Source of the DNA: a bacterium
Lineage (GTDB): Bacteria > Hydrothermota > Tepidihabitantia > Tepidihabitantales > Tepidihabitantaceae
Assembly (NCBI GenBank): GCA_035505375.1
Contig: DATJQV010000073.1
Location: forward strand, 1 to 45,650
Direction: 5' to 3'
DNA length: 45,650 nucleotides
Below the pieces are notes generated by a model, which worked only from the letters and a program-made list of their open reading frames with translations, ran no database searches and was not told the DNA's origin. The position numbers were made by a program, and so were the translations under genes. Below, one piece after another: positions 6,467-44,349 of this stretch; within the stretch, counting starts at the first letter, position 1; the number at the start of each line of letters is the position of its first letter.

Positions 6467-8212
6467 TCAACGGACCGGCTCCGGCGAAACCGGTTTCTCG
6501 GCCTCCGCAAGCAGGCTGCGCGCAATCGGCACGTAGGCCGAACCCGGGTATTCGAGTATCAACTGCTGGAGTGTCTCCCGATACTTCGCCTCGTCCTTGA
6601 GGTCGTCGCGATACACCCCGGCCTGTTCCAGCCTTGCCTTTGGCGCGAGCGAGCTGCTTCCGAACCGCTGACAGTACCGGTCGAGCGCGGCCAGCGCCTC
6701 TTTCGGCTTGTGCTCCCGCCGCAGGAACCGCGCGAGCAGGAAGCAGGCCTGTTGTGCGACAGCGTCGTCGCCGTCGGCCAGGGTCTGGGCCTTGTCGGCC
6801 TCATCGGCGCCGGTCTCATAGTCGAGCATCAGCCGCGCGAGCTCCTTGGCCCGGTCCCCGCTGCCGGTCAAGACCGCCAGGTCCAGCCCGTCGTTGACCA
6901 GCAGGCTCTGCGGGAACTGCCTGACCAGCTCATTCAAGTATGCGCCGGCCGAGTCGAACTGCCCTTCGTAGAAGAACGTGCGGGCCACGAGCAGCAGTAG
7001 CCGGTCGGACGAGTGGACGAGCTTCATGGCCGCGGCGCGAGCCGGTTCGGTATGCCCGAGACCGAGCAGGGCCGCCGCCTGTCCGAACACCGCCGGCTCG
7101 CTCGCCGGCTGGCGGGCAAGCGCCCGTTGGTAGCTTGCGAGCGCCCGAGCGTAGTCGCCCTGGTCGCGGCACAGGTCGCCCAGCTCAATCTGCGCCCCGA
7201 CGCCGTCGTCCATGGCCAGTTCGGCCAGCGCTTCCGGAACCCGGCCCATCGTCCTCAGCACCCGCGCTGCGTCGACGTGCACTTTCTGCTCCTGGTAGAC
7301 GGCAAGCGCCGCCCTCAGCGCGCCCTGCGCCTCGCAGTCGTGCGCGAATTCGTAAAGCTCCTGCCCGGACAGCACCGGCTTGAGCACGTGTACCGCTTCC
7401 GCCTCGTTCTTCGTAGCAAGATACACGACGGCCTTGGCTAGCGCGCGGGTTGCCGGGTCACTGACCTTCTCCAGTTCGCCGGCGATGCCGGCGCCGGACC
7501 TGACGGCAAGCGCCGAGAGCTTCTGCCGATAGCGGTCGAGTGCTTGCGGTGAGGCGTTGATGACGGACACTATCTCGCGCGTCGCCGCCGCCGGCTGGCC
7601 CGAGGCGTCGTACAGGTCGACCAGCCGGTCGGCAATCGCCATCCGGTCTGCGCCGTGCCGCAGCGCCTGCTCGTAGTAGTCGATGGCCGAAGCGTAGTCC
7701 TGGTGCCCGGCAAACACCTCACCCAGCGTTGCCAGCCGGTCCGGCCACTTGAGGGCTGCCCTGCGCCCTTCGACCCGAGCATCGGCTGTGCGCTTCAGCC
7801 CCAGCAGGCCGCTCACCAGCCCATACGAGTAATCGGCGACGTCCGGGAACTGCTTCTCCAGCCTGAGGCTGACGGCGACCAGAGTGTCGCAGCGCTTGAG
7901 CGTGTCGGCGAGGCGAACCAGACCGTCGTAGGACGGCATGTCCCTTGGTTCCTTGTTGACGCTCAGTCGATACTCCTCAAAGGCCTGGCCGGGCTGCCCG
8001 GCACGCTCGAGCATGAAGCCGCTCATGTAACTCTGGGCGTGGGCAACGCCCGCGCCCAGTGCAAGCAACACCACGAAAGCAGGCGCGGCCGCTCCGATCT
8101 TGGATAAAGTACAAAGTCCAAAGGACAAAGGACTAAGCAATGCGGAAAGGACAAAGTCAGGCTCCCTCAGTACTTTGTCCTTCATCCTTGGACCTTGCTT
8201 TGTCCTTATCAC
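6467..8212 (-). CDS. Exported TPR-repeat protein
   Basis: 581 residues with tetratricopeptide repeats along almost the full length (for example YASAIDYYEQALRHGADRMA and YARALASYQRALARQPA), ending in an outer-membrane-assembly-like TPR (EAKYRETLQQLILEYPGSAY). A signal peptide lies at about residues 40-60 (AAAPAFVVLLALGAGVAHAQ), unusually deep. The preceding 35 or so residues are encoded by the word-repeat block at 8103-8228, so the real start may lie further in, or the repeat may have been captured as coding sequence. The gene follows the DUF4175 gene by 18 bases and is probably cotranscribed with it. It likely acts as a periplasmic scaffold; the partner is unknown. Confidence 0.8.
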   Translation of the reverse strand: MIRTKQGPRMKDKVLREPDFVLSALLSPLSFGLCTLSKIGAAAPAFVVLLALGAGVAHAQSYMSGFMLERAGQPGQAFEEYRLSVNKEPRDMPSYDGLVRLADTLKRCDTLVAVSLRLEKQFPDVADYSYGLVSGLLGLKRTADARVEGRRAALKWPDRLATLGEVFAGHQDYASAIDYYEQALRHGADRMAIADRLVDLYDASGQPAAATREIVSVINASPQALDRYRQKLSALAVRSGAGIAGELEKVSDPATRALAKAVVYLATKNEAEAVHVLKPVLSGQELYEFAHDCEAQGALRAALAVYQEQKVHVDAARVLRTMGRVPEALAELAMDDGVGAQIELGDLCRDQGDYARALASYQRALARQPASEPAVFGQAAALLGLGHTEPARAAAMKLVHSSDRLLLLVARTFFYEGQFDSAGAYLNELVRQFPQSLLVNDGLDLAVLTGSGDRAKELARLMLDYETGADEADKAQTLADGDDAVAQQACFLLARFLRREHKPKEALAALDRYCQRFGSSSLAPKARLEQAGVYRDDLKDEAKYRETLQQLILEYPGSAYVPIARSLLAEAEKPVSPEPVR

Positions 8213-8230: not shown

Positions 8231-11200
8231 CTACTCGCTCAGCAGCCTCTGGAAATAGTCTCTTATCATCTGCTCGTACTCAGCCGGGTAGCCCTGCTTG
8301 AGCGAACGCATCAGTTCTTCGCGCAGCAGCCGGTTCCGCTCGCCTTTGTCCTCGGGCAGGCGGGGCTTCTGCTGCACCTGGAACTCTTTGCCTGACTCGC
8401 TCTCGCGTTCGTCTTTGAATCCCTGCTGCCTGATGCTGCGCTCGGCGTCGAGCAGGTGCGAGAGGATGCTCTGCTGCCGCTGGACCAGCGGTCGGCCCAC
8501 GTTCAGTTCGGACAGGTCCTTCTCCACCGCCTTCAAATCGTCAACCAGGCCCTCCAGGCTGGAAGTGAGTCCCGGCTGAACCCCGCCCGTCTTCTGAAGC
8601 ATCTGTTCGAGCTGCTCCCGCAGCGCCTGCTCCTTACCGAGCATTCTGCCCAGGGCCGACATCTGCTCAGCGGTCATGCCGCCGGGCATCGGTATCGGGA
8701 ATCCCGACATCTCGCCGTTGATGCCCATCTGCTCTCCGATCATCTGCGAGAGCTGCTGCATCATGTCGTCCATCGCGCCCGACATCCCGCCGCCCTTCTG
8801 CGACGCGGCCATCGCCTGCAGCATGGCCTGGGCCGTCCGGTTCAGGCTCTGTCGCGCCTGCTCCATTCCGGAGCGGACGGTTCCGGCCCGATTGTCCGCC
8901 ATTTCCTGCGCCGTCTGCTCCATTGCGTCCATCGCCTTGGCCAGCTCCTGCCCGAGGCTCGGATCGACGCTCATGCTGCGTGAGCTGAGGCTGGCCAGGC
9001 TCTCGGCGACGATTCTGGTTGCCTCGCGCAACCCGATCTCCTGCTGGGCGCGTTCGGACAGGTCCGGCATGCCGGCGGTGGCCTGCTCAAGCTTCTCCTG
9101 CTCGTCCGATACCATCATGACATCCTGCGCGGCGTCCCGCAGTTTCTGGGTCACTTCGGACGAACGCTTTGACTTCAGCTTCTGGCTCAGCGAACCGAGC
9201 GACCGGCTCATCTGCGCCAGGCTCTGCCCGAGCTTGTCGCTGCCGGGCTTGGCCTGGTCGAGCTGGTTCTGCTGCATCTGGCTCGCGAGATCCCGGGCCT
9301 GCTCGGACAGCTTCTGGTCGTTCGCCTGCTGCGCGAGCTTGTTCAGGGAATCGCCGATCTCCCTGTCGGACATCGAATCGGCGAGGCTCTTCATGTCATT
9401 CTGCAGGCTGTCGAGCGCGCCCTTGATGTCCTGTTCCAACTGCGAGGAACGCTGGTTCGGCTCCTTGCCCAGCTTGTCGGTCAGGTCCTGCTGGGCCTTG
9501 GCCATCTCCTCCGCTTTCTTGGCCAGCGCGTCGAGCCGCTGTTCCTCCATCACTTTTTTCAGCAGCTCCAGCGCCCGGTCAATCGCCTCCTTCATCTTCC
9601 CCTGGTCCATCTCGAACTTCTCCAGGGCACGCTTCACGTCCGGCGACTGCTGCTCGAGCTTGTCCTGCAGCTGGGCGAGCGACTGCTGAAGTTCGCGGGG
9701 CAGGACCTGGGACAGGATCTGCTGCAGTTGGCTCATCCGTTCCATGGTCTGCTGGTCGAGGTTCACGCCCTGCGACATCTCTTTCATCATGTCCGAGACT
9801 TCCTGCTTCAGGTCCGCGACCTGCTGCATCAGTCCCTGCTGGCCCCCGAGCACCTTCTCCAACGCCTGCTTTTCGTCCCAGGAAAGCTCGCGGCTCTTCT
9901 TCATTTCGTCCGACAGCCGGCCGACCTCCTGGCCGAGCTGGGCCTGCTGCGATTGCATCGGGCCGAGCTCGGACTCAGTGTGCTCGGTCTGCTGCACGGC
10001 CGCATTGTATATCTCGTTCATGGTCGGAAAGCGGATGGCGTACATTTCCGACCGGCTTACCTTGGGTCCGGAAACCACATCATTGTCGGTCACGGACACA
10101 AAGTAGTGTATCTGTTCGCCCGGCAGCAGCCCCAGGTTGGACAGATCCCAGGCGTACAGCGTCGTGTCCTCGCGCCTGCCCGACACCGACTTGATGTGCA
10201 CGAGATGGTCAATCGAATCCTTGCCGTAGTGCAGATAGAGGTCACCCAACCCGAAGTCATCAATGCTGTTGATGCCGAGCAGCACCTTCATCGAAACCGG
10301 CAGATCAACGTCGCGTCCGGGCAGAAAGAGCTTCACGAAAGGCGGCTCGTCGGCGATGGCCCGTACCTGCATGTCCGTGGCCGGCTGCAGAACCTTGTCC
10401 TCCTTGTCCGCCAGTTCGATCTTGCCTGAGGCATCGTCCTTGATGGCGAACCGGGCCCTGAACAGACCCGAATCCGCCGGGCCGATTTGGATCGGCAACG
10501 TGTCACTGCCAAGAATCACCTGCCCGACAGAAATCAACCGATTGGCCTCGCCTTCGACGTCCACGACCGTCCCCTTCAGTCCGCTGACTTCAGTAGCTGA
10601 GGATCTGACCTGAGGCAGACCGGAGTAGGCCGGCGGGTGAAGCGTGAACACCAGCCGCTCGAGGCCCAGCGGCTCGAGCACGCGCACGCGGTGAAGGTCG
10701 GACGAACGCCTCAGGATTGTGAATCGATACTCAAACCCGTGACCGGCGGCCAGCGCGATCCGACCGGTGTCGCCGTGCAAAGGGACAACCGACGATCCTC
10801 CGTGCCCCCCGACCCCCGACCCCTGACCCCTGACCCCGAGCCGCACCGCCCTGAACACGCCCGCCGGTACGACTCTTGCCCGCAGCAAGACGCTGCCGCC
10901 GGGCATCACCGCGGTGTCGCCGGGCTGAACTTCGAGGGTCACGCCGTCGGCGCGGCCGGTGAAGGCGTTGCTGATTCCGACCCTGGCCCGGGCCGGCGCG
11001 GCGTGGAATTGCACCCCGACACACAGGGCCATCAGTGCCAGGGCTGCGCCCGCCCAGACCACCCGGCGCCGGTTGACGAGCCGCCCCAGCGGCAATGGCG
11101 CAAGCGTCCGCTCGACATCAGCCACGGCCGCGTCAATCATCTCCTCCGAATAGCCTTCCTTTGCCCCTGACCCCTGACCCCCGACCCCCGACCCCCATTT

Positions 11201-20879: not shown

Positions 20880-21839
20880 CTACTCTTCGTCTGTCTCTGC
20901 CGCTGCCGGGCCGTGGTAGGAGATGGCGAGGCGGTGGGACGCGCCGAGCTTGCCGTAGGGCGCATAGGCGTAGTCCACGCCGATGCCATGCCAGGAGACG
21001 CCAAGCCCGGCCCGCAGGCCCGAGAACCCGTCATAGTCTGACCCGGTGCGATAGCCGACTCTGATAGCCAGGATTGAGACGGGCCTGCACTCGACTCCGG
21101 CCGCAATGCCCACGGGCGGGGCTTGGGACACGATCCCAATCGAGGACGATTGGGTCATGTCCCCGCCTAGTCCCTCGTACGAGAAGATGAAGTCCTGCAT
21201 GACTCCGATGATGCCCCGGTCGTAGCGCCAACCCAGGCGGCCCTGCAAGGGCAATGAGTAGCTTTCCTGGTACAGCGTCCCCTTGGTCCCAAGGTTCGAC
21301 ACCGAGACACCGACCTGCAGGCCTTCCAGCGGTGTCTCGTACATCGCGCCCGCGTCGAAGGCCACGGCCGAGGTCGAGAGGCTCTCCTGCTGGTCGTGGA
21401 CAAACTCAAGCCCGAGCCCTACTGACAGGTCGGAGAAGCTCCGGGCATAGCCGAGGTTCAGGGACCAGTCTGCGGCTGAAAACACGTAGCCGGGCACGGT
21501 CTCGCCTCGGATGTTGATGCCCTGAATCTCTCCCGAGCCCCAGTAGTCGAGCGCAAGCCCGAACTTACCCAGTCCCTCAAAGCCGCACACACCGGCCACG
21601 TACTCCTGGTTCATGTCCAGGAACCCTTGGTTATGTGCGAACAGGGCGCTGAACGTGGGCACGTTCGCCAGCCCGGCCGGGTTGTAGAACAAGGCCGAGG
21701 CGTCGTCGATGTAGGCCACAGCCGCCTCGCCGGTAGCGCACACCCGCGGCCCGACCGGGATCTTGAGAAACGACGCTCCAGTGTTGGCCAACACCAGCAC
21801 GGGAGCTACCAGACACAGAAGCACAGCCGTATGTTTCAC
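20880..21839 (-). CDS. PorV/PorQ-family outer-membrane protein
   Basis: 319 residues. A signal peptide (TAVLLCLVAPVLVLA) is followed by the family hallmark GASFLKIPVGPRVCATGEA and then DDASALFYNPAGLANV. The rest is amphipathic beta-strands (FGLALDYWGSGEI, LSVGLGLEFVHD, LRAGLGVSWHGIGVDYAYAP) of a FadL-like barrel. PorV is the type IX secretion shuttle protein in Bacteroidetes; here it fits the many sorting-domain proteins nearby. GTG start behind AAGGAG. A 39-bp palindrome is inserted in frame at 21125-21163, coding DMTQSSSIGIVSQ in place of what should be a loop. Confidence 0.85.
   Translation of the reverse strand: MKHTAVLLCLVAPVLVLANTGASFLKIPVGPRVCATGEAAVAYIDDASALFYNPAGLANVPTFSALFAHNQGFLDMNQEYVAGVCGFEGLGKFGLALDYWGSGEIQGINIRGETVPGYVFSAADWSLNLGYARSFSDLSVGLGLEFVHDQQESLSTSAVAFDAGAMYETPLEGLQVGVSVSNLGTKGTLYQESYSLPLQGRLGWRYDRGIIGVMQDFIFSYEGLGGDMTQSSSIGIVSQAPPVGIAAGVECRPVSILAIRVGYRTGSDYDGFSGLRAGLGVSWHGIGVDYAYAPYGKLGASHRLAISYHGPAAAETDEE
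21125..21163 (-). repeat. In-frame hairpin family, copy 1
   Basis: Outer arms GGGACACGATCC and GGTCATGTCCC on the plus strand, with inner arms CAATCG/CGATTG. Length 39 bp. It lies inside the PorV-like gene without breaking the frame. Confidence 0.85.
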
Positions 21840-21865: not shown

Positions 21866-21996
21866 ATCACTAATGACTAATTGCCAATTCCTAATCAATT
21901 CCCAATGGGCGAATGACCAACTGGCATTCAGACCTTGGGCATTTCCTGATTGATTGGGCATTAGCAATTGAGAATTGGGAATTCCGTCATCTGATG
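21866..21996. repeat. AATTGCCAATTCC word hairpin
   Basis: ATTGCCAATTCCTAATCAAT and CCAATGGGCGAATGACC in the first half, and TTGATTGGGCATTAGCAATT and GAATTGGGAATTCC in the second. It occupies the spacer upstream of the PorV-like gene and touches the end of the next gene. Same family as 44350-44476. Confidence 0.7.
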
Positions 21997-24542
21997 ACGG
22001 ATAGTTTCCCGACCTTGCTGCTCTTGCCGTCTGCCGAGACGACAAGGTAGACATATATACCGCTGGCGACCTTGGCATCCCACTCCAGATGCCCGTCGCC
22101 GTGTTCCACCGCGCTCCAGACCGACTGACCTGAGTTGTCGTAGATAGTCACCCGCGCCCCTGCGCTCAACCCCTGGAAGTGGATGGCATCCTGCTCCGGA
22201 TGCGTGTGCGGCTTGAACGGTATGGGCGCGACTCGAAGCGAGTCGAGGTTCTGACGCGGCTGCGGACCGCGCGCCTTAAGGAAGAAGCTATCCTGCACTT
22301 GGTAACCTGCCGTGTCCAGGGCGCTGACCACAACCCAGCCCGAGCGGCTGCCGAGCGACTCGCTCGTCGGTATGACTAGCGCGAGGGTACATTTCACCGC
22401 CTGCCCTATTGCCAGAGACTCAGGCAGGTTGAGAACGTAAGTGCTGTCGGCGCTAGAAGAAGAGTGAATAGTGAATTGTGAAGGGTGAATGGCTGCTCCA
22501 CGAGCAGAAGAGTGAAGAGTGAAGCTAGAAGAGTGAAGTCCGGAGTTCGGGTTTCTCTCTTCTCTATTCACCACTCTATCTTCACGATAACCATATCCTG
22601 TTATCGTGAGCGGCGACCGGCTCGGGCCGTCTGACTTATCCGGGTTGTAGGCGCTACTGGTGTTGACCAGCATGAATTCAGCTTTGGCGTAGGGATGATA
22701 GACCGGTCCTGCCGGCTGGGTGTGCATGTCTATCGTGTCATGAGCTACACTCAGTGAGTCACGGTCCACATCCAGGTCGCCGAGCTTTCTCGCAAGCGCA
22801 TAGAACGTCACGCCAATCAGAAACCCCGCCGTGTCCTTGCCCGAGATCGTAATGGCCCCCGCGTAGTCACCGTTGCTCTTCTCCGCCGGAACGAGCACGG
22901 CCAGGGTGCAGACCGCGGTCTGGCCTTGTGCCAGCGACGTGGGCAGATTCGGGATGAGAATGCTGTCGAGCGTCCCGCCCGGCCCGGCAAGCTTGCCGGT
23001 GAAGCGCAGGGAGTCCACCGGCGAATGGCTGGGGCCATCGGAAGTGTCCGGGTTGTAGGATGTGCTCGTATTAGCAAGGAGAAACTCGCCGAGAGCGTAC
23101 TCCGTGTACTTCGGCGGGGGCCCGGCTGAGACCAATTGGGGTCGAACTCGAATAGTATCGGCTATTGCGTTAAGCGAGTCTGGGGCCACGTCGAGGTCGC
23201 CCAGCTTCCTGACGGAGACGTAGCAGCTTTCATAGACTTGCAGGCCTGCCGTGTCCTTGCCGCTAATGAAAAGCTGGCCGGTGTAGTAACCATCCCTGAG
23301 GCCCACCGGTACGTACGCAGCAAGTGTGCAAACTACAGTCCGGCCCTGCGCAAGGTACGATGGTAGACTCGGAATGACGAGGCTGTCGATGGTCCCGCCT
23401 GGCCCGGTGAGCGAACCGGTGCATCTCAGTGAAGCTACCGGAGACACGCTCGGCCCGTCGCTGGTGTCCGGGTTGTAGGCTGCGCTCGTATTGGCGAGGA
23501 TGAACTCGCCGCGAGCCCACGAACCCGCGCCCTTGAGCCGGAGAGTGTCGGCCGATACGTCCAGCGAGTCAGGGTCGATATCAAGATCGCCGAGTTGATA
23601 GAACCGGTACATCTGAAACCCAAGTCCGCAGTAGTAGACATAGTCTCCGTGCCCCACGAGGGAGCACCAACCAAACCCGCCGCCGTAGTACCCGGCGAGG
23701 GTCGGATGGGTCGGCGCTGAAATGGATATGGCCCACAGCCCAGAGGACATGCCGCCGGCAGCAAAGGCATAGCCGCGTCTCAGCACCATCCCCCAGCCGT
23801 TGAAGGGTGTCGAATCGAGGGACCCAATCTCGACCGGATTCGACGGGTCGGCAACGGATACTACCTTGAAGCTTCCTTGGCACCCGACATACGCAAGGCT
23901 ACCGCTCAGCGCAACGCCGTAGACAGGGCCGGGCGTGTATTTCCCCACTTCAACCGGATGCGCCCGGTCCGCGATCGAGATGATGTGCAAGCCGCTCGCG
24001 CGCGACGCGACGTAGGCGTGCTCTTGACCAACTTCTACCTGCTCCCACATCTGTAGACCCGATGTGTCGTTGATGCGCCCGACCTCGGTCGGGTGTGTCG
24101 GGTCCGCCACTGAGACGATACTTAGCCCCATGGAATCAATGACGTAGGCGCATTCCGCGCCGACAGCCAAATCCCAGGCCTCGTGCTTCCAACAGCCGAC
24201 CTGAACTGGGTTCGCCGGGTTGGAAACGGAAAAGATCCGCATCCCTGCCGTGTCATCCGCGTAGTAGACGTACTCCCCGCTTACCGCAAGATTGCGCGAT
24301 ACGGCCATCGTGGAACACCGCCAGACCTCCTCCGGGTGAGAAAGGTCAGCCAGAGAGAGAACGTGCAGTCCATCATACCCGTCGTCCGAAAGTCCCACAA
24401 CGAAGGCATACTCCCCCTTGACTGCCACGCCAACCAGTTGTGAACCGCCCCAATGGCCGACCTGCCGAAAGTAGAGCGAATCTGCCTGCGCGATACCGAC
24501 CAGCAGCAGGACCAGACAGAATGCCACAATTGGTGTTCTCAC
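21987..24542 (-). CDS. Secreted LVIVP propeller protein with three GDLDVDPDSL modules and sorting domain
   Basis: 851 residues. A signal peptide (MRTPIVAFCLVLLLVGIAQA) is followed by LVIVP repeats to about residue 325 (AYVASRASGLHIISIADRAH). Three modules follow, each starting LGDLDVDPDSL-like (near 330, 450, 590) and containing SDGPS-SP and GQ-CTLA segments. The last 80 residues are a sorting domain (FKPH, GLSAGARVTIYDNSGQSVWS, GKLSVIR). The third module contains a word-repeat insertion (22450-22600) coding REDRVVNREERNPNSGLHSS and more. GTG start behind GGAGGT (24547-24552), the same leader as the next paralogue. Probably surface-exported through the PorV/type IX-like route. Confidence 0.85.
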   Translation of the reverse strand: MRTPIVAFCLVLLLVGIAQADSLYFRQVGHWGGSQLVGVAVKGEYAFVVGLSDDGYDGLHVLSLADLSHPEEVWRCSTMAVSRNLAVSGEYVYYADDTAGMRIFSVSNPANPVQVGCWKHEAWDLAVGAECAYVIDSMGLSIVSVADPTHPTEVGRINDTSGLQMWEQVEVGQEHAYVASRASGLHIISIADRAHPVEVGKYTPGPVYGVALSGSLAYVGCQGSFKVVSVADPSNPVEIGSLDSTPFNGWGMVLRRGYAFAAGGMSSGLWAISISAPTHPTLAGYYGGGFGWCSLVGHGDYVYYCGLGFQMYRFYQLGDLDIDPDSLDVSADTLRLKGAGSWARGEFILANTSAAYNPDTSDGPSVSPVASLRCTGSLTGPGGTIDSLVIPSLPSYLAQGRTVVCTLAAYVPVGLRDGYYTGQLFISGKDTAGLQVYESCYVSVRKLGDLDVAPDSLNAIADTIRVRPQLVSAGPPPKYTEYALGEFLLANTSTSYNPDTSDGPSHSPVDSLRFTGKLAGPGGTLDSILIPNLPTSLAQGQTAVCTLAVLVPAEKSNGDYAGAITISGKDTAGFLIGVTFYALARKLGDLDVDRDSLSVAHDTIDMHTQPAGPVYHPYAKAEFMLVNTSSAYNPDKSDGPSRSPLTITGYGYREDRVVNREERNPNSGLHSSSFTLHSSARGAAIHPSQFTIHSSSSADSTYVLNLPESLAIGQAVKCTLALVIPTSESLGSRSGWVVVSALDTAGYQVQDSFFLKARGPQPRQNLDSLRVAPIPFKPHTHPEQDAIHFQGLSAGARVTIYDNSGQSVWSAVEHGDGHLEWDAKVASGIYVYLVVSADGKSSKVGKLSVIR
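22450..22600. repeat. GAAGAGTGAA word hairpin inside the 851-residue gene
   Basis: Repeated GAAGAGTGAAGAGTGAAGC, GAATAGTGAATTGTGAAGGG and complements TCTCTATTCACCACTCTATC. It is in frame within module 3, at the place where the two paralogues carry other repeats. Confidence 0.75.
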
Positions 24543-25150
24543 GGATACCTCCCATCGAAGAACGCAAGCCCAAGCTCTAACGCTGGCAGGCGGAACGCGA
24601 AGATGGTCATCGCTTTCCTCGGGTACATGATAGAACTGACTCCCCGGATGTCAACCTGCCGACCAGCGCCCCGCGTCATCCGTCCTCAGCTAGCGTATCA
24701 CCGACAGCTTGCCGACCTTGCTGCTCTTGCCGTCAGCCGAGACGACCAGATACACATAGATGCCGCTGGCCACCTTCGCGTCCCATTTGAGCTGGCCGTC
24801 ACTTGACGCAGTCGCGCTCCAGACCGATTGTCCTGAGGCATCGTAGACAATGACGCGTGCACCCGCGGGGAGACCCCAGAAGTGAATGGCGTCGTGCGCC
24901 GGGTTCTGATGCGGCTTGAACGGTATCGGCGCTACCCGGAATGAGTCGAGATTCTTCCACGGTTCCGGGCCAGTCACCTTGAGGAAGAAGCTATCCTGAA
25001 CCTGATAGCCTATCGTGTCCATGGCGCTGACCACAACCCAGCCCGAGTGGCTACTGAGCGACTCGCTCGTTGGTATGGCTAGCGCGAGCGTACACGCAAC
25101 CGCCTGTCCAACTGCAAGGGACTCTGGTAGATTGGTAACATAGATACTGT
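24541..25150. repeat. Duplicated segment A (spacer plus 3' coding end)
   Basis: This aligns without gaps to 27721-28330 (offset 3180). The 145-base spacer is as well conserved as the coding part. It indicates a fairly recent duplication or gene conversion between neighbouring paralogues. Confidence 0.85.
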
Positions 25151-27722
25151 CTGCGTCATCCGCGGTTGTCTTCTGAGAGATTCCTCCACTCCGTTTCACT
25201 CCGGTCGGAATGACATCCTTCTTGGCGGTTCCCATCCTTGCCTCAACCTTGGCCTCAACCTTAACCTCTCTGAGGGGCGACCGACTCGGGCCATCCGATT
25301 TGTTCGGGTTGTAGGCGCTGTCCGTGTTGACCAGCATGAACTCGGCCTTGATGGTTGACGAGTAGTTTGGCCCTGCCGGGTTAGTGTGCAGGTTCATGGT
25401 GTCATGCACCACGCCGAGCGAGTCGGGGTCTACATCCAAGTCCCCAAGCGGCCCCAGCGGGTTATTCACCTGCAGGAGTGCGTAGAAGGTGACATCGACC
25501 GGCACGTTGTTGACGTCCCTGCCGGTAATCGTGATTGACCCGGCATAGTCGCCGTTCTGCAGTCCCGACGGCACGTGGACCGAGAGCGTGCAGACAGCAG
25601 TCTGACCTTGATACAGCGATTCAGGCAGATTCGGAACGAGGATGCTGTCCAGCGTCCCGCCCGGACCCGCAAGCGAACCGGTGACGTGAAGTGAGCCTAC
25701 CGAGGACAAGCTCGGTCCGTCCTTTGGGTCCGAGTTGTAGCACGCGGTGGTATTCACCAGGACAAGCGCGCCGCTACGGTTCGCACCGGAGCTTCCCAGT
25801 CGGAGCGTGTCGGCAGACACCTCAAGCGAGTCGGGGTCAACATCTAGGTCGCCGAGCTGCTCCGCGGGATCGCCGTAGAAGCGGAGTACTCTCATCGAAC
25901 GGTTGTCGACGACGTAGACGTAGCCCCCGTCAAGGGCCACATCGTTCGATAAAGACCACGCATTGCCGATGAGTGCATAGAACCCGGCCTCCACCGGATG
26001 CGCCGGGGCGGCAATCGACATCACCCACAAGTTGCCGGATGCCACGACATAAGCATTGTCCCTGGTCATCGCTACGCTCGTTGCTGAACCCAGCGTATCA
26101 CTGAAGCCGACCTCGACCGGGTGAGTTGGGTCATTGATCGAAATCACCCGTAGTCCGGAATCTCCGGCAACGCAAGCAAAGTCTCCCCTCACAGCCACGC
26201 CATAGACTTTTCCCGGCATGCTGTCGTCGTAACCCACCTCAACCGGGTGCGCAGGGTCCGCCACCGAGACAATCCTCAGCCCGCCTCGTCCGCTGGCAAG
26301 AAAAGCCAGGTCACCAGACACGGCTAAGCCGTAGGCCTCTCCCGGCGTACTGTAGTGCCAGTGCCCGACCTCAACCGGATTCGTCGGATCCATTACCGAG
26401 ACAATCCGCAATCCGGCCGTGTCGTCTGCCACGTACGCATAGTCACCGCCGAGGGCGACGGCGTTTGCGTAGTACGTGTTGACGGACGCGACCTCTCTGG
26501 GATGCGACGAGTCAGCAATCGAGACTACCCGCAGCCCGGAGTCGCGATCTGCGACGTAGGCATACTTGCCACCTCCGCACAAAGCCACGCCCAACGGCCA
26601 GACCGGCATCGTACACTTTCCCGCCTCAAAAGGATAGGCCGGAGTGCTCGTCGACATGACGCTCAACCCAAAAGAGTCGCCGACGAGGTAGGCATGGCCT
26701 CGAAAAGCAGCTACACCCGAAGGGCTACTGTATGTGTTAAGCAACCCGACCACCGCGGGGTGCGCCGGGTCAATGACCGACACAACGTAGAGCTCGCGGC
26801 CCTCATCCGGGACATAAGCGTACCCGTCAAGCACGGCTACCTGCCGCCAAGTACTCACTGCGCAGTGTCCGTCCTCAGCCGGATGCGCAGGGTCAGACAC
26901 CGAGATGACCGTCAATCCGCTATCCGCTACGCAGGCGTAGCTTCCATACAAGGCCACACTGACTGGAGCGCCGCGCGTGCGGCACTGACCGACCACGACT
27001 GGATTAGACGAGTCGGCAACGGAGATGACCTCCAGTCTATTGGAGTCGCCGTCCCCAACATAGGCAAAGCCTCCGGCGACCGCCAGTGCGCCAGCGTTGC
27101 CAAGAGTATCGCAAGAGCCGACATCAACCGGGTTTGCCGGGTCCGCGACCGATATCACCCTCAGTCCGGTCCTGCCGGTCGTTTGATAGGCAAGGTCTCC
27201 AACGACGACTAGACAACCTAGACCACTGACGTAGCTCGGTAGCGAGTCCAACCCGACCACAACCGGGTGTGCAGGGTCCGTAATCGAAATGACTCGCAGC
27301 ACGCCACCGACGTCTACGATGTATGCGTATCCACCGCTGGCAGCTACCATAATCGTACGGACCGAGTCGGTGTAGTGGCCGAGCTCCACCGGGTGTGCCG
27401 GGTCGGCGACTGAGAATATGCGTAATCCTGCGCCGTAATCCGCGACAAACAGAAGGTTGTTCTGATAACTAAGGCCCTGAACCTCGTCATTCACCCACGC
27501 TCGTGATAGCTCCACCGGGGAGCCAGGATTGCTCACGTCCACCACTCTTACAGAGCGGTTAGTCCCGAGAAACGCCAGGTTTCTGGCCGAGTCGAGCGCC
27601 ACGTGGTCTGCGGACGTCATGCCGCACTCGTAGCCGCCGACGAACCGCACGTTGAGCGAGTCGGCCTGCGCGACGCCGACCAGCAGCAAGCCCAGACAGA
27701 ATGCTAACACTGGTGTTCTCAT
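24690..27722 (-). CDS. Large secreted LVIVP propeller protein with sorting domain
   Basis: 1010 residues from the ATG at 27722. I prefer this start because GGAGGT (27727-27732) stands just before it and the leader MRTPVLAFCLGLLLVGVAQA matches the neighbour; an ATG at 27734 would place the ribosome-binding site inside the gene. LVIVP repeats fill residues 25-615 (for example LRVISVADPANPVDVGSC, YVADDTAGLRIVSVMDP). Two GDLDVDPDSL modules and the sorting domain (RVIVYDASGQSVWSATAS, GKLSVIR) follow. Module 2 contains a word-repeat insertion at 25150-25275. It is the middle member of three paralogues in one strand-consistent run. Confidence 0.85.
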   Translation of the reverse strand: MRTPVLAFCLGLLLVGVAQADSLNVRFVGGYECGMTSADHVALDSARNLAFLGTNRSVRVVDVSNPGSPVELSRAWVNDEVQGLSYQNNLLFVADYGAGLRIFSVADPAHPVELGHYTDSVRTIMVAASGGYAYIVDVGGVLRVISITDPAHPVVVGLDSLPSYVSGLGCLVVVGDLAYQTTGRTGLRVISVADPANPVDVGSCDTLGNAGALAVAGGFAYVGDGDSNRLEVISVADSSNPVVVGQCRTRGAPVSVALYGSYACVADSGLTVISVSDPAHPAEDGHCAVSTWRQVAVLDGYAYVPDEGRELYVVSVIDPAHPAVVGLLNTYSSPSGVAAFRGHAYLVGDSFGLSVMSTSTPAYPFEAGKCTMPVWPLGVALCGGGKYAYVADRDSGLRVVSIADSSHPREVASVNTYYANAVALGGDYAYVADDTAGLRIVSVMDPTNPVEVGHWHYSTPGEAYGLAVSGDLAFLASGRGGLRIVSVADPAHPVEVGYDDSMPGKVYGVAVRGDFACVAGDSGLRVISINDPTHPVEVGFSDTLGSATSVAMTRDNAYVVASGNLWVMSIAAPAHPVEAGFYALIGNAWSLSNDVALDGGYVYVVDNRSMRVLRFYGDPAEQLGDLDVDPDSLEVSADTLRLGSSGANRSGALVLVNTTACYNSDPKDGPSLSSVGSLHVTGSLAGPGGTLDSILVPNLPESLYQGQTAVCTLSVHVPSGLQNGDYAGSITITGRDVNNVPVDVTFYALLQVNNPLGPLGDLDVDPDSLGVVHDTMNLHTNPAGPNYSSTIKAEFMLVNTDSAYNPNKSDGPSRSPLREVKVEAKVEARMGTAKKDVIPTGVKRSGGISQKTTADDADSIYVTNLPESLAVGQAVACTLALAIPTSESLSSHSGWVVVSAMDTIGYQVQDSFFLKVTGPEPWKNLDSFRVAPIPFKPHQNPAHDAIHFWGLPAGARVIVYDASGQSVWSATASSDGQLKWDAKVASGIYVYLVVSADGKSSKVGKLSVIR
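25150..25275. repeat. Word-repeat insertion in the linker of the 1010-residue gene
   Basis: Contains CCTCCACTCCGTTTCACTCC (coding GVKRSGGIS) and the tandem GCCTCAACCTTG words (coding KVEAKVEA). It interrupts a region otherwise closely matching the next paralogue. Confidence 0.75.
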
Positions 27723-28330
27723 GGACACCTCCAATGGAAGAACGCAAGCCCAACATCAAACGCTGGCAGGCGGAACGCGAAGATGGTCATCGCTTTCCTC
27801 GGGTACATGATAGAACTGACTCCCAGGATGTCAACCTGCCGACCAGCGCCCCGCGTCATCTGTCCTCAGCTAGCGTATCACCGATAGCTTGCCGACCTTG
27901 TTGCTCTTGCCGTCCGCCGAGACGACCAGGTACACATAGATGCCGCTGGCCACTTTGGCGTCCCACTTGAGCTGGCCGTCACTTGACGCAGTCGCGCTCC
28001 AGACCGACTGTCCTGAAGCATCGTAGACGATAGCACGGGCACCGGCGGGTAGACCCCAGAAGTGAATGGCGTCGTGCGCCGGGTTCTGATGCGGCTTGAA
28101 CGGAATCGGCGCTACCCGGAACGAATCGAGGTTCTTCCACGGCTGCGGGCCAGTCACCTTGAGGAAGAAGCTATCCTGCACCTGATAGCCTATCGTGTCC
28201 ATGGCGCTGACTACAACCCAGCCCGAGTGGCTGCCGAGCGACTCGCTCGTCGGAATGACTAGCGCGAGCGTACATTGAACCGCCTGTCCAACCGCCAGCG
28301 AATCGGGTAGGTTGAGCACGTACACGCTGT
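27721..28330. repeat. Duplicated segment B
   Basis: Partner of 24541-25150 at constant offset 3180. It includes the start region of the 1010-residue gene, the spacer and the 3' end of the 1308-residue gene. Confidence 0.85.
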
Positions 28331-31300
28331 CCATTACGGACGAAGAGTGAAGAGTGAAGTCAGAAGAGTGAAACGCGGACCGGGACTTTGTGGTCTTGTT
28401 CTGCGCCTCAACCTTAGCCTCGACCTTAACCTGTCTGAGCTTCGACCGGCTCGGGCCATCCGATTTGTTCGGGTTGTAGGCACTGTCCGTGTTGACCAGC
28501 ATGAACTCAGCCTTGATGGTTGATGAGTAGTTTGGCCCCGCGGGCTGAGCATGCAGATTCATGGTATCATGCTTCACGCTCAGCGAGTCGGGGTCCACGT
28601 CCAAATCTCCGAGTGGTCCTCCTGCGTTATGCTTCTGCAGGAACGCGTAGGCCGTCGCCGCAATCTCGTAGTGGAGAGAATCGATACCGGTGATGGTAAT
28701 CGGGCCTGAGTAGTCGCCGTTGGGCAGGTTGTCCGGCACGTAGACAGCCAAGGTACAGACAACGGCCTGCCCCTGCGCCAGCGACTCCGGCAGGTTGAAG
28801 ATGCGGATGCTGTCGAGAGTCTCGCCGGACCCGGTGAGCGAACCGGTGAAGCGCAGAGAATCCACTGGGGATTGGCTTGGGCCGTCGGACGTGTCCGGGT
28901 TGTACGACGCGCTCGTGTTGACCAGGATGAACCGCCCGAGTTCATACCCGGTCAGGTTCCGGCCGGCCGTCTGGTTGAGTCCGGGTTGCAGGACTTGCAC
29001 CGGGCTGCGTGCCGGACTGAGACCGACATGTGATGGAGCGGACCCGCGCGCCACTGCCGCGGCTGCCGCGTTGGTCCGGACCTGGGACACGATCCGAATT
29101 GAAGACAATTCGGTCATGTCCCGCGTCAGTCCTGACTGCGAGCGGACCCGAATCGTGTCGCCGACCACGTCCAGCGAGTCGGGGTCGATGTCGATGTCAC
29201 CAAGCTGCTTGACGAGCGCGCAGAACCTCGCCTCAACGACCATGCCCGCCGTGTCCCGACCAGCCACTCTGACCCAGCCCGAATAGGTGCCGTTCCGCAT
29301 CGCCGGCGGGATGTAGACCGACAGCGAGCAGACAATGCCTTGGCCCACGACCAGCGAGTCGGACAGATGCGGGATGATGATGCTATCGAGCGTCCCACGC
29401 GGGCCTCTGAGCGAGCAGGAGTAGTTGAAGGAATCTATCGGCGACTGGCTGGGGCCGTCGGAAGGGTCCGGGTTGAACGACGCGCTGGTGTTGACCAGCA
29501 CAAACTCGCCGACCGCATACGAACCCGCGCCTCTGAGTCGGATGGTGTCGGCCACTACTCTGAGCGAGTCAGGGTCAACGTCAAGGTCGCCCAGCGGCGG
29601 GCCCTGGTAGTCTCGCAGCACTGAAACGCTGGAGCCCATTTTGTTGGCAACATAGACTCGGTTCTGGGCCATGTTCCACTCAATAGCATTGGGGTCAGCG
29701 TCGACAGCGATTGAGCGGCGCACCTTGTTGTCCCAGCCGTTGATTACTGTAACGCTGTCGATGACACCGGTCTCGTCTTGCCCGCCGTCATTCACGCGGT
29801 AGACCCGGTCGTTCGTTACGTCGTAGTATAGAAGCGATGAGCCGTATCCGGCGGCGACGGTCGCGATGACCGAGTCCGTCCTGCCGTCAATCACGGTCAC
29901 GAAGCCTCTATGGCTGCTGTCAGTGTACGCGCAGTAGACTCGGTCGTTCTGGATGTTGCAGCAGAGCTGCCCCCCGACCTTGATGACGTTTGTCACCGAG
30001 TCCGTCGCGCAGTCGATTACGTATGTGTTATTGGGGGTTGAGCAGTAGACCTTGTTGGGCGGATAGTTGCTGCAGAGGGCAATCGCGTTGGCCCCTACGG
30101 GTACGTTTGCGATTATTGTGTCCGTTGCGCCATCGGCCACACCTACGGCGTTGTTCGAGCCTATGCAGTAGAGCCGGTCGTTCGCGGAGTTGTAGTAGAG
30201 CGGTCCATTGCTCGGGAACGCGATTCCCTTGACGAGAGCGTCCGTTGCTCCGTCCATCACCACCAACTGCGACCCGATGGCAATGTAGACCTTGTTGTCT
30301 CTCGTGTTGTAGCAGAGGCCCTTGTAGGCGCACTTCTCGTGGACGCTGTCGATGACCTGATTGGTAGCGCCGTCAAGCACCATGAGTTGAGGGGTGAGCC
30401 TGCACCCGCAGTAGACCTTGTTGTTACGCCAGTTGTAGCACAAGGCCCACGAACTGGCCCCGGTCTTGACGCCGGTGATGACGGAGTTGGTCGCACCGTC
30501 CATTACCGTCACGGCCCCGTGGCCGTAGTCCGCGCAATAGACCTTGTCGTCCTGTGCATTGTAGCAGAGCGACATGGTCTGGTCTCCCATATAGATAGTC
30601 GTCACCGGTGGCCTGTCCGTCTTGCAGTCAATCACATCCACGCTGCCGTAACCCCCGACTGTGGCATTGCCGTAGTCGTTCGCGAAGTAGACCTCGTCGT
30701 TCCGCGGGTTGAAGCTGAGAGCACGCGGTCTCGCATTCGGGTCTTCGTACAGAGAAATCTTGGCGACGACGGAGTTGGTTGAGCCGTCAATCGCGGCCAG
30801 CAGATTCGCACTCGCGCAATAGACCCTGTTGTCCAGCGGGTCGTAGCACAGGGCAGCCAACCACGTCGTCGCCACCGTGTCGGTGGCAATGACGGAGTCA
30901 GTCGCCCCGTTTAGCACCGTCACAGTGCCGTCGTTTTCACTCCCGGAATAGACCTTGTCGTCTTGAGGGTTGTAGCACAAGGCCCACGGGTATTTTCCGA
31001 CCGCTATCGTGGCGATAACCGAGTCGCCCGCCCCGTCGATCACGGTCACGTTGTTGCCGTGGTAGTTCGCGCAAAAGACCTTGTTGTCGTGCGCATCGTA
31101 TTGGAGCACGTTGGGCGCGCTCCCCGTTGTCACAGTTGCGACCACGCCGTTGGTCGCGCAGTCAATCACGGTTACAGTGCCCGCGCTGTCGTTGGCGCAG
31201 TAGACCTTGTCGCTTTGAGGGTTGTAACACAAGGCCTGTGGGCATTTTCCGACCGCTATCGTGGCGATAAGCGAGTTGTCCGCACCGTCAATCACGCTTA

Positions 31301-31796
31301 CCGTACCGCTGGCGTTGTCCGCGCTGTAGACTCGGTTGTGCAGCGGGCTGTAGCATAGGGCCACGGGGCCTTGACCGACGGTGACAGTGGCGGCGACTGA
31401 GTTCGTCGCACAATCAATCACGCCTACGTCGTCGGACGCACCGTCGGCGCTGTACGCCTTGTTGTCGTGGGAATTGTAGCAGATGGCGGAGTTCCACGTG
31501 CCGAAAGGAATCCGCGCTATCTTCTGGTCTGTTGCGCCGTCTATGGCAATTACACCCTTTGCGCCGCCGACGTACGTCCTGTTGTCCACTGAGTCGTAGG
31601 CGAAGCACCACACGGACAGCATCCCGCCGCACGAGTCGGGAACGGTCAGAGTGGTCTCCAGCCACTGCGACCGACCGATGCTCACGCTGAGCGCAAGCGC
31701 GCACAGCAGTGGCTTCAGGTTCTTGAGCCTGTAGGAGGAGAAGGAGTAACGGCAATCGCTGCCACGAGCATAGTCTGACATACGCGCCCCCAGCAA
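27870..31796 (-). CDS. Giant secreted YVTN/YncE-type propeller protein with sorting domain
   Basis: 1308 residues. After a signal-like segment (LKPLLCALALSVSIG), residues 45-735 are about 15 repeats of the YVTN type (VTVIDGATNSV-AT-VG--P-ALCYNP--NKVYCAN), forming one or two propellers. Three GDLDVDPDSL modules follow, and then the C-terminal sorting domain (FKPHQNPAHDAIHFWGLPAG, GKLSVIR). It shares the C-terminal half with the two LVIVP neighbours, so the propeller type was swapped while the export tail stayed. Two insertions are visible: about 180 bases around 28935-29140 that include the 39-bp hairpin at 29084-29122, and a word repeat at 28325-28440. Confidence 0.85.
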   Translation of the reverse strand: MLGARMSDYARGSDCRYSFSSYRLKNLKPLLCALALSVSIGRSQWLETTLTVPDSCGGMLSVWCFAYDSVDNRTYVGGAKGVIAIDGATDQKIARIPFGTWNSAICYNSHDNKAYSADGASDDVGVIDCATNSVAATVTVGQGPVALCYSPLHNRVYSADNASGTVSVIDGADNSLIATIAVGKCPQALCYNPQSDKVYCANDSAGTVTVIDCATNGVVATVTTGSAPNVLQYDAHDNKVFCANYHGNNVTVIDGAGDSVIATIAVGKYPWALCYNPQDDKVYSGSENDGTVTVLNGATDSVIATDTVATTWLAALCYDPLDNRVYCASANLLAAIDGSTNSVVAKISLYEDPNARPRALSFNPRNDEVYFANDYGNATVGGYGSVDVIDCKTDRPPVTTIYMGDQTMSLCYNAQDDKVYCADYGHGAVTVMDGATNSVITGVKTGASSWALCYNWRNNKVYCGCRLTPQLMVLDGATNQVIDSVHEKCAYKGLCYNTRDNKVYIAIGSQLVVMDGATDALVKGIAFPSNGPLYYNSANDRLYCIGSNNAVGVADGATDTIIANVPVGANAIALCSNYPPNKVYCSTPNNTYVIDCATDSVTNVIKVGGQLCCNIQNDRVYCAYTDSSHRGFVTVIDGRTDSVIATVAAGYGSSLLYYDVTNDRVYRVNDGGQDETGVIDSVTVINGWDNKVRRSIAVDADPNAIEWNMAQNRVYVANKMGSSVSVLRDYQGPPLGDLDVDPDSLRVVADTIRLRGAGSYAVGEFVLVNTSASFNPDPSDGPSQSPIDSFNYSCSLRGPRGTLDSIIIPHLSDSLVVGQGIVCSLSVYIPPAMRNGTYSGWVRVAGRDTAGMVVEARFCALVKQLGDIDIDPDSLDVVGDTIRVRSQSGLTRDMTELSSIRIVSQVRTNAAAAAVARGSAPSHVGLSPARSPVQVLQPGLNQTAGRNLTGYELGRFILVNTSASYNPDTSDGPSQSPVDSLRFTGSLTGSGETLDSIRIFNLPESLAQGQAVVCTLAVYVPDNLPNGDYSGPITITGIDSLHYEIAATAYAFLQKHNAGGPLGDLDVDPDSLSVKHDTMNLHAQPAGPNYSSTIKAEFMLVNTDSAYNPNKSDGPSRSKLRQVKVEAKVEAQNKTTKSRSAFHSSDFTLHSSSVMDSVYVLNLPDSLAVGQAVQCTLALVIPTSESLGSHSGWVVVSAMDTIGYQVQDSFFLKVTGPQPWKNLDSFRVAPIPFKPHQNPAHDAIHFWGLPAGARAIVYDASGQSVWSATASSDGQLKWDAKVASGIYVYLVVSADGKSNKVGKLSVIR
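28325..28440. repeat. Word-repeat insertion in the linker of the 1308-residue gene
   Basis: GAAGAGTGAAGAGTGAAGTC words (coding FHSSDFTLHSSS) followed by the KVEAKVEA words. It is at the position equivalent to 25150-25275 and 22450-22600. Confidence 0.75.
29084..29122 (-). repeat. In-frame hairpin family, copy 2
   Basis: Same 39-bp length and outer arms (GGGACACGATCC, GGTCATGTCCC) as copy 1, with inner arms GAATT/AATTC. It codes DMTELSSIRIVSQ in the 1308-residue protein. Confidence 0.88.
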
Positions 31797-41365: not shown

Positions 41366-43576
41366 ATGGACCACCGTCCCGCGACGCTCATCGCGCCCCG
41401 GCTCCTGCTGCGCGCCCTGACCCAGTCCCTGCATAAGCTGAACCCGATCTCGCTCTGGCGCAACCCGGTGATGCTCGCGGTTGAACTCGGAGCGCTGGTC
41501 ACCACGGTCTTCATCGGAATCGATGCCGCCCGCGGTAGCGGTGTCGGCTTTGTCCTGCAGGTCAGTATCTGGCTCTGGTTCACCGTCATCTTCGCCAACT
41601 TCGCCGAAGCCCTGGCCGAGGCGCAGGGCACTGCCCGAGCCGAGTCCCTGCGCAAGTCACGACACGACCTCATAGCCCAGGTCATGCGCGATGACGGCAG
41701 TACTGAGCCGGTCCCGGCGACCAAGCTCCGCAAGGACGACGTGATTCTCCTCAAGGACGGCGAGGTGATTTCCGGCGACGGCGAGGTCATCGAAGGCACG
41801 TCACTCGTGGACGAATCGGCCATCACCGGCGAATCGGCCCCGGTCATTCGTGAGGCGGGCGGCGACCGCAGCGGCGTCACCGGCGGCTCCCGAGTCCTTT
41901 CCGGCACCATCAAGGTGAGAATCACCGCCAATCCCGGGGAGACCTTCCTCGACAACATGATAAAGATGGTCGAGAGCGCGCGCCGCCACAAGACCCCGAA
42001 CGAGATTGCCCTCGAAATCATGCTTATCGGGCTCACCGTCCTGTTCATCGTGGTCGTCGTGACCCTGCCTGCCTTTGCCGCTTACATGGGAGTCAGCACC
42101 ACGGTCCCGATACTCATCTCGCTCCTCGTCTGCCTGATGCCCACGACCATCGGCGGGTTGCTGCCTGCCATCGGCATCGCCGGTACGGACCGCCTGCTCC
42201 AGCACAACATCATCGCCCTGAGCGGCCGGGCAATCGAGGCCGCGGGCGACGTGGACGTGGTCCTGCTCGACAAGACCGGGACGATCACGCTCGGAAACCG
42301 CATGGCGACCGAGCTGATTCCCGCGACCGGCGTGACGCGCGAGGAGACAATCGAGGCCGCCCTGCTCTCCTCCCTGTCGGACGAGACCCCGGAAGGCCGC
42401 AGCATCGTGGTCCTGAGCAAGAACGAACTCGGCATCAAAGGCCGCGACATCCGCGCGCCCGAAGGCGCTTCGTTCGTCCCGTTCTCGGCCCAGACCCGGA
42501 TGAGCGGAATCGACATCCCAGAATCGCCAAACGCCAATCGCCAATCGCCGAACTCCGAAGTCCGGAGTTCCCGGTTGGACAGCTCGGCGTTCGGCGTTCG
42601 CAGTTCGCAGTTTCCGCCGCGTCGTATTCGTAAGGGCTCGGTGGACGCGGTGCGCGCCTGGGTCGAAGCCGCCGGCGGCACGTTCTCCGAAGACCTCAAA
42701 CACAAGGTCGACGCGCTCGCCGCACAGGGCGACACGCCACTAGTCATCGCCGAAGTCAGGACTCCAGGATTCAAGGATTCCAGGGGTCCAGTTCCGGACA
42801 CTGGAATCCTCGACCCCTCGACTCCTCGACCCCTTCCTCGTCTTCTAGGCATCATCCGCCTCAAGGACGTGTTGAAGCAAGGCATCAAGGCGCGGCTCTC
42901 CCAACTCCGCCAGCTCGGAATCAAGTCGGTGATGATTACCGGCGACAACCCACTCACGGCCGCCTCCATTGCGGCTGAGGCCGGACTCGACGACTTCGTG
43001 GCCCAGGCAAGACCTGAGGCCAAGCTGGAGCTGATTCGGAAATACCAGTCCGACGGCCACCTGCTGGCGATGATCGGTGACGGTACCAACGACGCTCCTG
43101 CCCTTGCCCAGGCCGACGTCGCGGTCGCAATGAACGCAGGAACCCAGGCCGCGCGCGAAGCGGCCAACATGATTGACCTCGACTCCAACCCGACCAAGCT
43201 CCTCGACATCGTCGAAGTGGGCAAACAGATACTCATCACGCGCGGCGCGCTGACTACGTTCTCTATTGCCAATGACGTATCCAAGTACTTCGCCATCGTC
43301 CCGGCAATCTTTGTCGCAGTCTATCCTCGGCTCGGGTTCCTCAATGTCATGCACCTTACCAACCCGTCGAGCGCGGTCCTCGCCGCGGTCGTATTTAACG
43401 CCATCATCATCCCGATGCTGATACCGATAGCCTTGCGCGGGGTCAGGTTCCGAACGACATCGGCCTCGGCCCTGCTCCGACTCAACCTGCTGGTCTATGG
43501 CGTCGGCGGACTGCTGCTCCCGTTCCTCGGCATCAAACTCCTCGACCTGCTGCTGGTCTGGCTCCATCTCGCATGA
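41366..43576 (+). CDS. kdpB: K+-transporting ATPase subunit KdpB, with two inserted peptides
   Basis: 736 residues against 682 in E. coli. This is the P1A-type ATPase subunit. Actuator [19 protein letters not shown]4 [20 protein letters not shown], phosphorylation site [13 protein letters not shown], nucleotide domain [11 protein letters not shown] and [12 protein letters not shown], hinge [20 protein letters not shown], and C-terminal TMs are all intact. The extra 54 residues are two insertions: one between GIDI and [10 protein letters not shown] (about 35 residues, 42517-42620) and one before [11 protein letters not shown] (about 27 residues, 42756-42846). Both are coded by palindromic word repeats and lie in the nucleotide-binding domain on loops. 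The stop overlaps the kdpC ATG (ATGA). Confidence 0.95.
42517..42620. repeat. CGCCAATCGCC word hairpin inside kdpB
   Basis: CGCCAATCGCCAATCGCCGA and the complement side CTCGGCGTTCGGCGTTCG, around a small palindrome AACTCCGAAGTCCGGAGTT. In frame. Confidence 0.8.
42756..42846. repeat. GGATTCCAG word hairpin inside kdpB
   Basis: A perfect 9-bp inverted repeat GGATTCCAG (42775-42783) / CTGGAATCC (42801-42809), followed by CTCGACCCCTCGACTCC words. In frame. Confidence 0.8.
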
Positions 43577-44349
43577 ACCCCGGTAACCTGCAAAGAGTAT
43601 CCGCAGACTACGCAGATTACACAGATGGGTCCGGACGGAAATCGGCGGAACCCATGAAGTCTGTGGATATTCTCTCCGGTCCTCCCTCGCCCCGCCTGCG
43701 GGGAGAGGGCCAGGGTGAGGGGTGTGCGAACCGCCCCATGCGCAACCTGAGAACGTCGCTCCTGATGCTGGGCATCTTCTCGCTCCTGCTGGGCATCATC
43801 TACCCGCTCGCCGTCACCGGCATTGCCCAAGTCCTCTTTCCCTTCCGCGCCAACGGCAGCCTGGTCAGCGCGGGACATGACCGAAACTCTCCGGGAGTTT
43901 CGGATCGTGTCCCAAGCGGACCCGTCGGCTCCCTCCTCATCGGCCAGCAGTTCTCTTCTCCCCTGTACTTCCACGGCCGTCCGTCCGAATGCGGGTACGA
44001 TGCCGCTCACTCGACCGGGCTGAACCTCGGGCCGTCTAACCCCGCCTTTCTCGCCCAGACCCGCGCCCGTGTCGAAAGCCTCAAGACGGAAGAGAACTTG
44101 CCGCCCGGCGCGACCGTGCCCGCCGACCTTGTGCTCGCATCCGCCAGCGGGCTCGACCCCGACATCTCTCCTCAGTCGGCGCTCTTGCAGGTAGCACGGA
44201 TTGCGAGAGTCCGCAACCTTGAGCCCGCGCTCGTCCGCAGCCTCGTGCTGCGTCACACCGATCGGCCTTTCCTTGGCGTCTTCGGTGAGCCCCGGGTGAA
44301 CGTCTTGAAACTGAACCTCGCGCTCGATAGCATATCCGCTGGGAGATGA
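43573..44349 (+). CDS. kdpC: K+-transporting ATPase subunit KdpC
   Basis: KdpC stabilises the KdpAB complex. The classical protein begins at [19 protein letters not shown] (ATG 43738, about 203 residues). The frame, however, opens at an ATG that overlaps the kdpB stop (ATGA), the usual coupled start, which gives 258 residues with a 55-residue extension coded by two word repeats ([19 protein letters not shown] and [14 protein letters not shown]). I take 43573 because of the overlap but cannot exclude 43738. Conserved parts are [58 protein letters not shown] and [12 protein letters not shown] 42-bp hairpin (43872-43913) is inserted in frame after NGSLVSA. Confidence 0.92.
43595..43678. repeat. 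CGCAGATTACACAGAT word hairpin at the kdpC 5' end
   Basis: ATCCGCAGACTACGCAGATT and ACACAGATGGGT pair imperfectly with ACCCATGAAGTCTGTGGATA. In frame with kdpC. Confidence 0.7.
43681..43722. repeat. CCCTC/GAGGG palindrome, copy 3
   Basis: CCCTCGCCCC-gcct-GCGGGGAGAGGG followed by CCAGGGTGAGGGG. Related to 11691-11748 and 33108-33165. In frame with kdpC. Confidence 0.65.
43872..43913 (+). repeat. In-frame hairpin family, copy 3
   Basis: 42 bp. The minus strand shows the same outer arms GGGACACGATCC and GGTCATGTCCC as copies 1 and 2, with longer inner arms GAAACTC/GAGTTTC. It codes [14 protein letters not shown] in KdpC. Its orientation relative to the coding strand matches the other two copies; its reading frame differs. 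Confidence 0.88.

Follow-up and report, generated by a model that had tools for sequence, protein, structure and literature searches.

Short dispersed repeats lie in frame within protein-coding genes of a bacterium related to candidate division WOR-3

Three propeller genes and the linker of their last module

The window, that is, the whole stretch of DNA that was analysed, is one complete contig (C73) of 45,650 bp from a draft genome of 3.6 Mb in 90 contigs. Its nearest named relatives belong to candidate division WOR-3, as judged by an alignment-based contig scan; a scan with single sequences gave no match. Three propeller genes are located in the window next to a gene of the PorV/PorQ family (Table 1), and with one further copy each on contigs C83, C74 and C44 the genome contains six propeller-type tails. 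From their sequences, the propeller proteins look secreted. By eye, about 100 bp are nearly identical in the spacers upstream of genes 1 and 2 (24543-24689 and 27735-27869), which points to a recent tandem duplication.

Table 1. Positions of the genes, repeats and native strands discussed here, numbered along the window
Feature	Position	Strand	Evidence
PorV/PorQ-family gene adjoining the propeller genes	20880-21839		PorV_fam E=6.4e-43
40-bp-class palindrome, in frame in the PorV/PorQ-family gene	21125..21163	-	Pattern census
Propeller gene 1: LVIVD repeats, three Ig-like GDLDVDxDSL modules, weak T9SS-type tail	21987..24542	-	Translation; Pfam LVIVD E=9.4e-32; NCBIfam Por_Secre_tail 21.3 bits vs cutoff 23
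Second, partial GAAGAGT heptamer array in the gene 1 linker	22457..22489	+	Profile R1, 27.1 bits, model 2-34; period-7 scan
Whole GAAGAGT-armed imperfect palindrome in the gene 1 linker: heptamer arm, CCGG-rich core, reverse-complement arm	22506..22582	+	Profile R1 on both strands, 68.8 and 53.4 bits; DNA fold z -2.93; alignment A2
Propeller gene 2	24690..27734	-	LVIVD E=4.6e-79; Por_Secre_tail 24.7 bits, above cutoff
Different dispersed repeat word in the gene 2 linker, AGATTCCTC...CGGAATGACA type, peptide DVIPTGVKRSGGIS	25177..25215	+	Weaker genome copies on C39 (80%) and C41 (85%)
KVEAKVEA strand of gene 2, ancestral, no insert	25240..25265	-	Position matches KVEAEVEGQ in G001/G003
Propeller gene 3: YVTN/YncE-type propeller, C-terminal modules as in genes 1 and 2	27870..31796	-	TIGR02276 E=2.1e-62
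GAAGAGT element, left arm and core, in the gene 3 linker	28341..28408	+	Profile R1, 47.5 bits, model 3-71; 28337-28406 matches C83:18734-18801 at 99% identity
KVEAKVEA strand of gene 3, ancestral, no insert	28405..28433	-	Comparison with G001/G003 and alignment of relatives
39-bp palindrome GGGACATGACC...GGATCGTGTCCC in the preceding module of gene 3, in frame, peptide RDMTELSSIRIVSQ	29084..29122	-	Pattern census; missing from the aligned G003 module

In the last module of each propeller gene, the initial annotation described a linker filled with low-complexity words, and its positions for these words are correct: GAAGAGT words are present at two places in gene 1, a CCTCCACTCCG word is present in gene 2 (Table 1), and GAAGAGT words span 28342-28373 in gene 3. 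The length difference of 15 bases that it gave for genes 2 and 3 is also right (matching regions of 762 vs 747 nt). DNA identity between these genes is 84% upstream (174/207) and 90% downstream (417/462) but 48% in the linker itself (42/87).

Alignment of the six tails of this genome with five tails from relatives reveals one insertion point, located just after the KVEA strand and before DSIYVLNLP. All six own copies contain an insert, which is absent at that alignment position in G001, G002, G003 (two copies) and G018. The insert-free linkers of G001 and G003, which belong to the same genus, read REFKVEAEVEGQ-NGTLDSIYVLNLP and REIEVEAEVEGQ-NGSIDSVYVLNLP, respectively; the uninserted form of G001 is SPLREFKVEAEVEGQ-NGTLDSIYVLNLPESL, with the same layout in G003. 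Because these insert-free relatives carry the KVEA strand, it is ancestral, and the KVEA words that had been counted among the inserted ones are in fact a native beta-strand. The insert of gene 1 overlaps this strand, and what is left of the flank, SPLTITGY, is similar to SPLMITGF, the other short form; other short linker forms are found in G002, the second G003 copy and G018. Apart from its KVEA part, the suggestion that unrelated repeats arrived in, or replaced each other at, one spot in frame is supported by the absence of the inserts in relatives, by their difference between near-identical paralogues and by the likeness of the gene 3 linker to that of a distant paralogue; NadA and SelA orthologues of other species show this pattern again. 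Among the relatives examined, old and static repeats are excluded at the level of species.

The other modules had been taken as ordinary throughout, which is not the case: the preceding module of gene 3 contains an in-frame palindrome of 39 bp (Table 1), and there is an extra insert in the middle module of the C83 paralogue (L003). The latter is in frame, encodes the peptide SRSFRPSHEVAKGGIS and occupies a different linker, directly before LGEFVLVNTS.

The linker of the last module is best explained as a predicted permissive loop that joins beta-strand KVEAxVEA to beta-strand DSIYVLNLP in a secreted surface module, and this loop would probably be solvent-exposed. The predicted structure of this module is of poor quality (mean pLDDT 47), with strands at residues 61-72 and 98-102 and low-confidence coil between them, so that the loop position of the linker rests on weak predicted secondary structure.

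Linker contents and their exchange between paralogues

The GAAGAGT element is a dispersed, imperfect palindrome of ~77 bp with 7-nt-periodic arms. It is present as a whole in gene 1 and C74, and as left arm and core only in gene 3 and C83; a predicted peptide of the gene 3 insert is SAFHSSDFTLHSS. Alignment A2 of the element has 12 members. Profile R1 finds about 11 near-full copies in our own 808-kb sample and hits identical places on both strands, as expected of a palindrome. RNAalifold found no consensus pairing in A2, and R1 was therefore kept as a sequence-only profile and the covariation model dropped; folding z-scores of single hairpins range from -4.0 to +0.6. No convincing R1 match was found in other genera, and each of the six genomes from the genus carries the 17-mer GAAGAGTGAAGAGTGAA, as against 0 of 55 others. 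The word in the linker of gene 2 is a different dispersed repeat, whose C41 copy is in frame within an ORF of 452 aa.

Comparison of gene 3 (C73c) with C83 reveals an 83-nt linker tract with 2 mismatches, while identity elsewhere is 76%; assuming a uniform rate, the chance expectation of such a tract is ~3e-5. The near identity of the tract against 76% in the flanks indicates that the linker content has moved separately from the sequence around it. Ectopic gene conversion would be the simplest route of this exchange.

Repeats across the genome and in housekeeping enzymes

Nothing in our analysis supports the earlier view that the phenomenon is peculiar to the propeller genes, as the repeats are found genome-wide. 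Counts were made in an 808-kb sample, which was taken as stretches and covers 22% of the genome. It contains 103 period-7 arrays in coding DNA and 69 in noncoding DNA, whereas shuffled controls gave 4.4 and 0, and this distance excludes chance; the corresponding coding and noncoding counts in the same sample are 19 and 4 for period 6, and 13 and 15 for period 8. Per base, array density is about three times greater in noncoding than in coding DNA. Wholly inside predicted genes are 98 of the 172 arrays (59 internal and 22 N-terminal); a misplaced start codon may account for part of the 22. Coding arrays occur in each of the three codon phases (33/40/25), with a preference for the stop-free orientation (20 vs 6). 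There are dozens of distinct heptamer units, and the units within an array are degenerate. A perfect 7-nt array without stops yields an identical heptapeptide whichever frame is used (FTLHSSL from TTCACTC), so that it can be read wherever it lands and only its total length matters.

Local alignment detected an inverted partner near 15 of 74 noncoding and 7 of 98 coding arrays, as compared with 2.8% in the control. Since such a partner is detectable in a minority of arrays, the evidence for palindromic arms covers the GAAGAGT family and a minority of the other arrays but not the heptamer class as a whole, and folding z-scores of the arrays are only modestly below those of random positions. We considered and rejected the idea that all heptamer arrays are hairpin arms: a strict pair test found 3 of 36 neighbouring pairs inverted, and the local-alignment excess is clear only in noncoding DNA. 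By eye, ends such as GGAAA...TTTCC and GGACAA...TTGTCC recur, which might be terminal inverted repeats like those of MITEs. Neither a mobilising gene nor a target-site duplication has so far been tied to the heptamer elements. Period-7 enrichment in other WOR-3 families was also rejected, because runs of N had raised the raw counts; once these are set aside, a strong signal is left in the genus and a weak one in G007, with almost none elsewhere.

More heptamer arrays are present in other genes of the window, at 8106-8137, 10803-10842, 11161-11198 and 42521-42613. The last of these, an array pair within the gene of a P-type ATPase, has the appearance of inverted arms on either side of a GTCCGG core. 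Segments resembling a T9SS tail in L032, L074 and L075 (from G000, G002 and G004) share the heptamer-encoded FTLHSSLFSLSGQKV, as if an array had become part of the tail.

A separate class of repeat is the 40-bp palindrome GGGACACGATCC...GGTCATGTCCC, of which the 808-kb sample contains 17 full copies; 14 lie within predicted genes, in phases 0, 1 and 2 (3, 5 and 6 copies). Three genes of the window contain an in-frame palindrome of this class, two at positions listed in Table 1 (21125 and 29084) and one at 43872-43913. In-frame palindromes are found in unrelated genes, namely those of AlaRS, LysRS, the PorV family and the propellers. At the matching site, the G003 orthologue of the PorV-family gene carries the palindrome in reverse orientation and in a different frame. 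The gene resembling alanyl-tRNA synthetase (AlaRS, named from sequence; within stretch L102, C75:40001-60000) contains three in-frame palindromes, at C75:43105, 43323 and 43968, and its G003 orthologue, which is 85% identical, lacks a counterpart of at least the copy that precedes LGKVF.

In-frame inserts interrupt TruB, NadA, SelA, AlaRS and LysRS, and comparison of orthologues reveals how their sites differ. TruB contains a CAATCGN array before GHAGTLDP in G000, G003 and G004; other species are shorter there by 21-27 nt, and the short forms already hold a partial heptamer. In NadA one loop carries an insert in six of six species, with different word families and with a palindromic insert in G003; against the closest NadA structure (5ktm) the insert appears as a clean gap. 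SelA has two sites, the first of which is filled in G000 and G003 only, whereas the second is occupied in G000, G002 and G003, by three different words, and empty in G001, G004 and G005. Gene copies, like species, can differ in the repeat that they have at one and the same loop. Other array sites compared between G000 and G003 are partly lineage-specific and partly shared, and a few have different words. The first SelA site and the TruB sites are shared unchanged between species, which means that not all array sites are young.

Origin of the inserts and comparison with known systems

A review (PMC10969869) describes Rickettsia palindromic elements (RPE; Ogata et al. 2000, 2002), which are ~150 bp long with a conserved peptide. 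Set beside RPE by description, the repeats reported here are alike in being dispersed palindromes, in frame in unrelated protein genes and apparently tolerated by the fold. However, they measure ~40 and ~77 bp, have 7-nt-periodic arms and use all three frames, and one site has opposite orientations in two species, so there is no single conserved frame or peptide. The heptanucleotide repeats of cyanobacteria, Xanthomonas and Beggiatoaceae consist of one or a few exact heptamers and are mostly intergenic (PMC4692102, PMC4679880). Tandem 7-nt words, many copies and genome-wide enrichment are common to both systems, but the units here are dozens and degenerate, and over half of the arrays are within predicted genes. 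In archaeal Borg elements, tandem repeats within genes likewise make new, probably disordered protein segments, although all ORF units there are divisible by three (PMC9879509) and the unit here is 7. REP elements with RAYT transposases are short palindromes (PMC2817692, PMC3733652). Short palindromes and Y1_Tnp genes are present here too, with five of the latter above cutoff in the genome, one of these in the window. A RAYT-like gene at 216-893 of the window (66.8 bits; NCBIfam cutoff, 80) has inverted copies of the short palindrome AATAGGGACACTTCCCTATT on either side, at 201-220 and, as its inverse, at 931-950. These palindromes are, however, another sequence, by eye do not resemble the GAAGAGT element, and no link between the transposase and the heptamers was found. 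A brief literature search found no paper on such repeats in WOR-3.

With a probability of about 0.8, we consider that frame-tolerant dispersed repeats persist at permissive loops and are reshuffled there by ectopic conversion, resembling RPE in how they behave and the cyanobacterial heptamer repeats in how they look, and fitting neither. The genome in this genus contains many short dispersed repeats, namely separate 40-bp palindromes and 7-nt-periodic arrays, part of which form the arms of imperfect palindromes whose core is CCGG-rich. Copies may have entered both genes and intergenic DNA and been kept where the protein tolerates added residues and the total length preserves the frame. Once paralogues differ at a loop, ectopic gene conversion could shift loop contents between them, and arrays also lengthen or shorten in three-unit steps (21 nt). 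The inserts themselves are probably neutral or nearly so.

It is possible, though clearly less probable, that local slippage alone is responsible, with arrays born independently from short native seeds and nothing inserted or moved. The dozens of distinct units, the partial heptamer in the short forms of TruB and the difference of exactly three units between TruB arrays of different species would agree with this, and slippage tied to a 7-nt polymerase footprint has been proposed (cited in PMC4679880 and PMC4692102). Against slippage alone, GAAGAGT recurs at many places as a ~77-bp palindrome with a common core, the linker of gene 3 and C83 has moved as a block, and the 40-bp palindromes are not tandem repeats at all. 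Selection for loop diversity, by which the words would give surface proteins different binding or antigenic properties, is improbable; loop contents do differ among paralogues of a secreted family and have been exchanged, but like inserts are found in cytosolic enzymes and intergenic DNA, and relatives manage without the insert.

Phase-variable contingency loci, in which 7-nt repeats toggle surface genes by frameshift, are very improbable. A unit length that is not a multiple of three and the secreted look of the propeller proteins would suit such loci, yet the arrays are degenerate and lie inside the housekeeping enzymes TruB, NadA, SelA and LysRS, and the change observed in TruB is of 21 nt and keeps the frame. 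Misassembly, gene-calling errors or pseudogenes could be suspected in a draft of 90 contigs, and misassigned start codons may explain some N-terminal arrays. But like inserts occur in six draft genomes of the genus with well-conserved flanks and open frames, and they adjoin conserved motifs such as GHAGTLDP and WEGFCYVH, by which an artefact is already largely refuted and, in our estimate, extremely improbable.

A wider and more tentative idea is that selfish or slippage-born DNA, whose 7-nt period makes it readable in three frames, might thereby be seeding new protein segments throughout the lineage, with permissive loops of essential enzymes acting as docking sites and the repeat content turning over between species; we regard this as possible but less likely than not. 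Coding insertion of dispersed repeats has so far been known mainly from Rickettsia. Here it is seen far from that group, in a lineage that is uncultured; it is extensive, reaches essential enzymes and involves repeats with a unit length that ignores the codon. The idea that non-triplet repeats open in all frames are a source of new protein sequence reportedly goes back to the work of Ohno. The genus offers a natural test of whether such repeats can supply new protein sequence, for which it provides many paired empty and filled sites.
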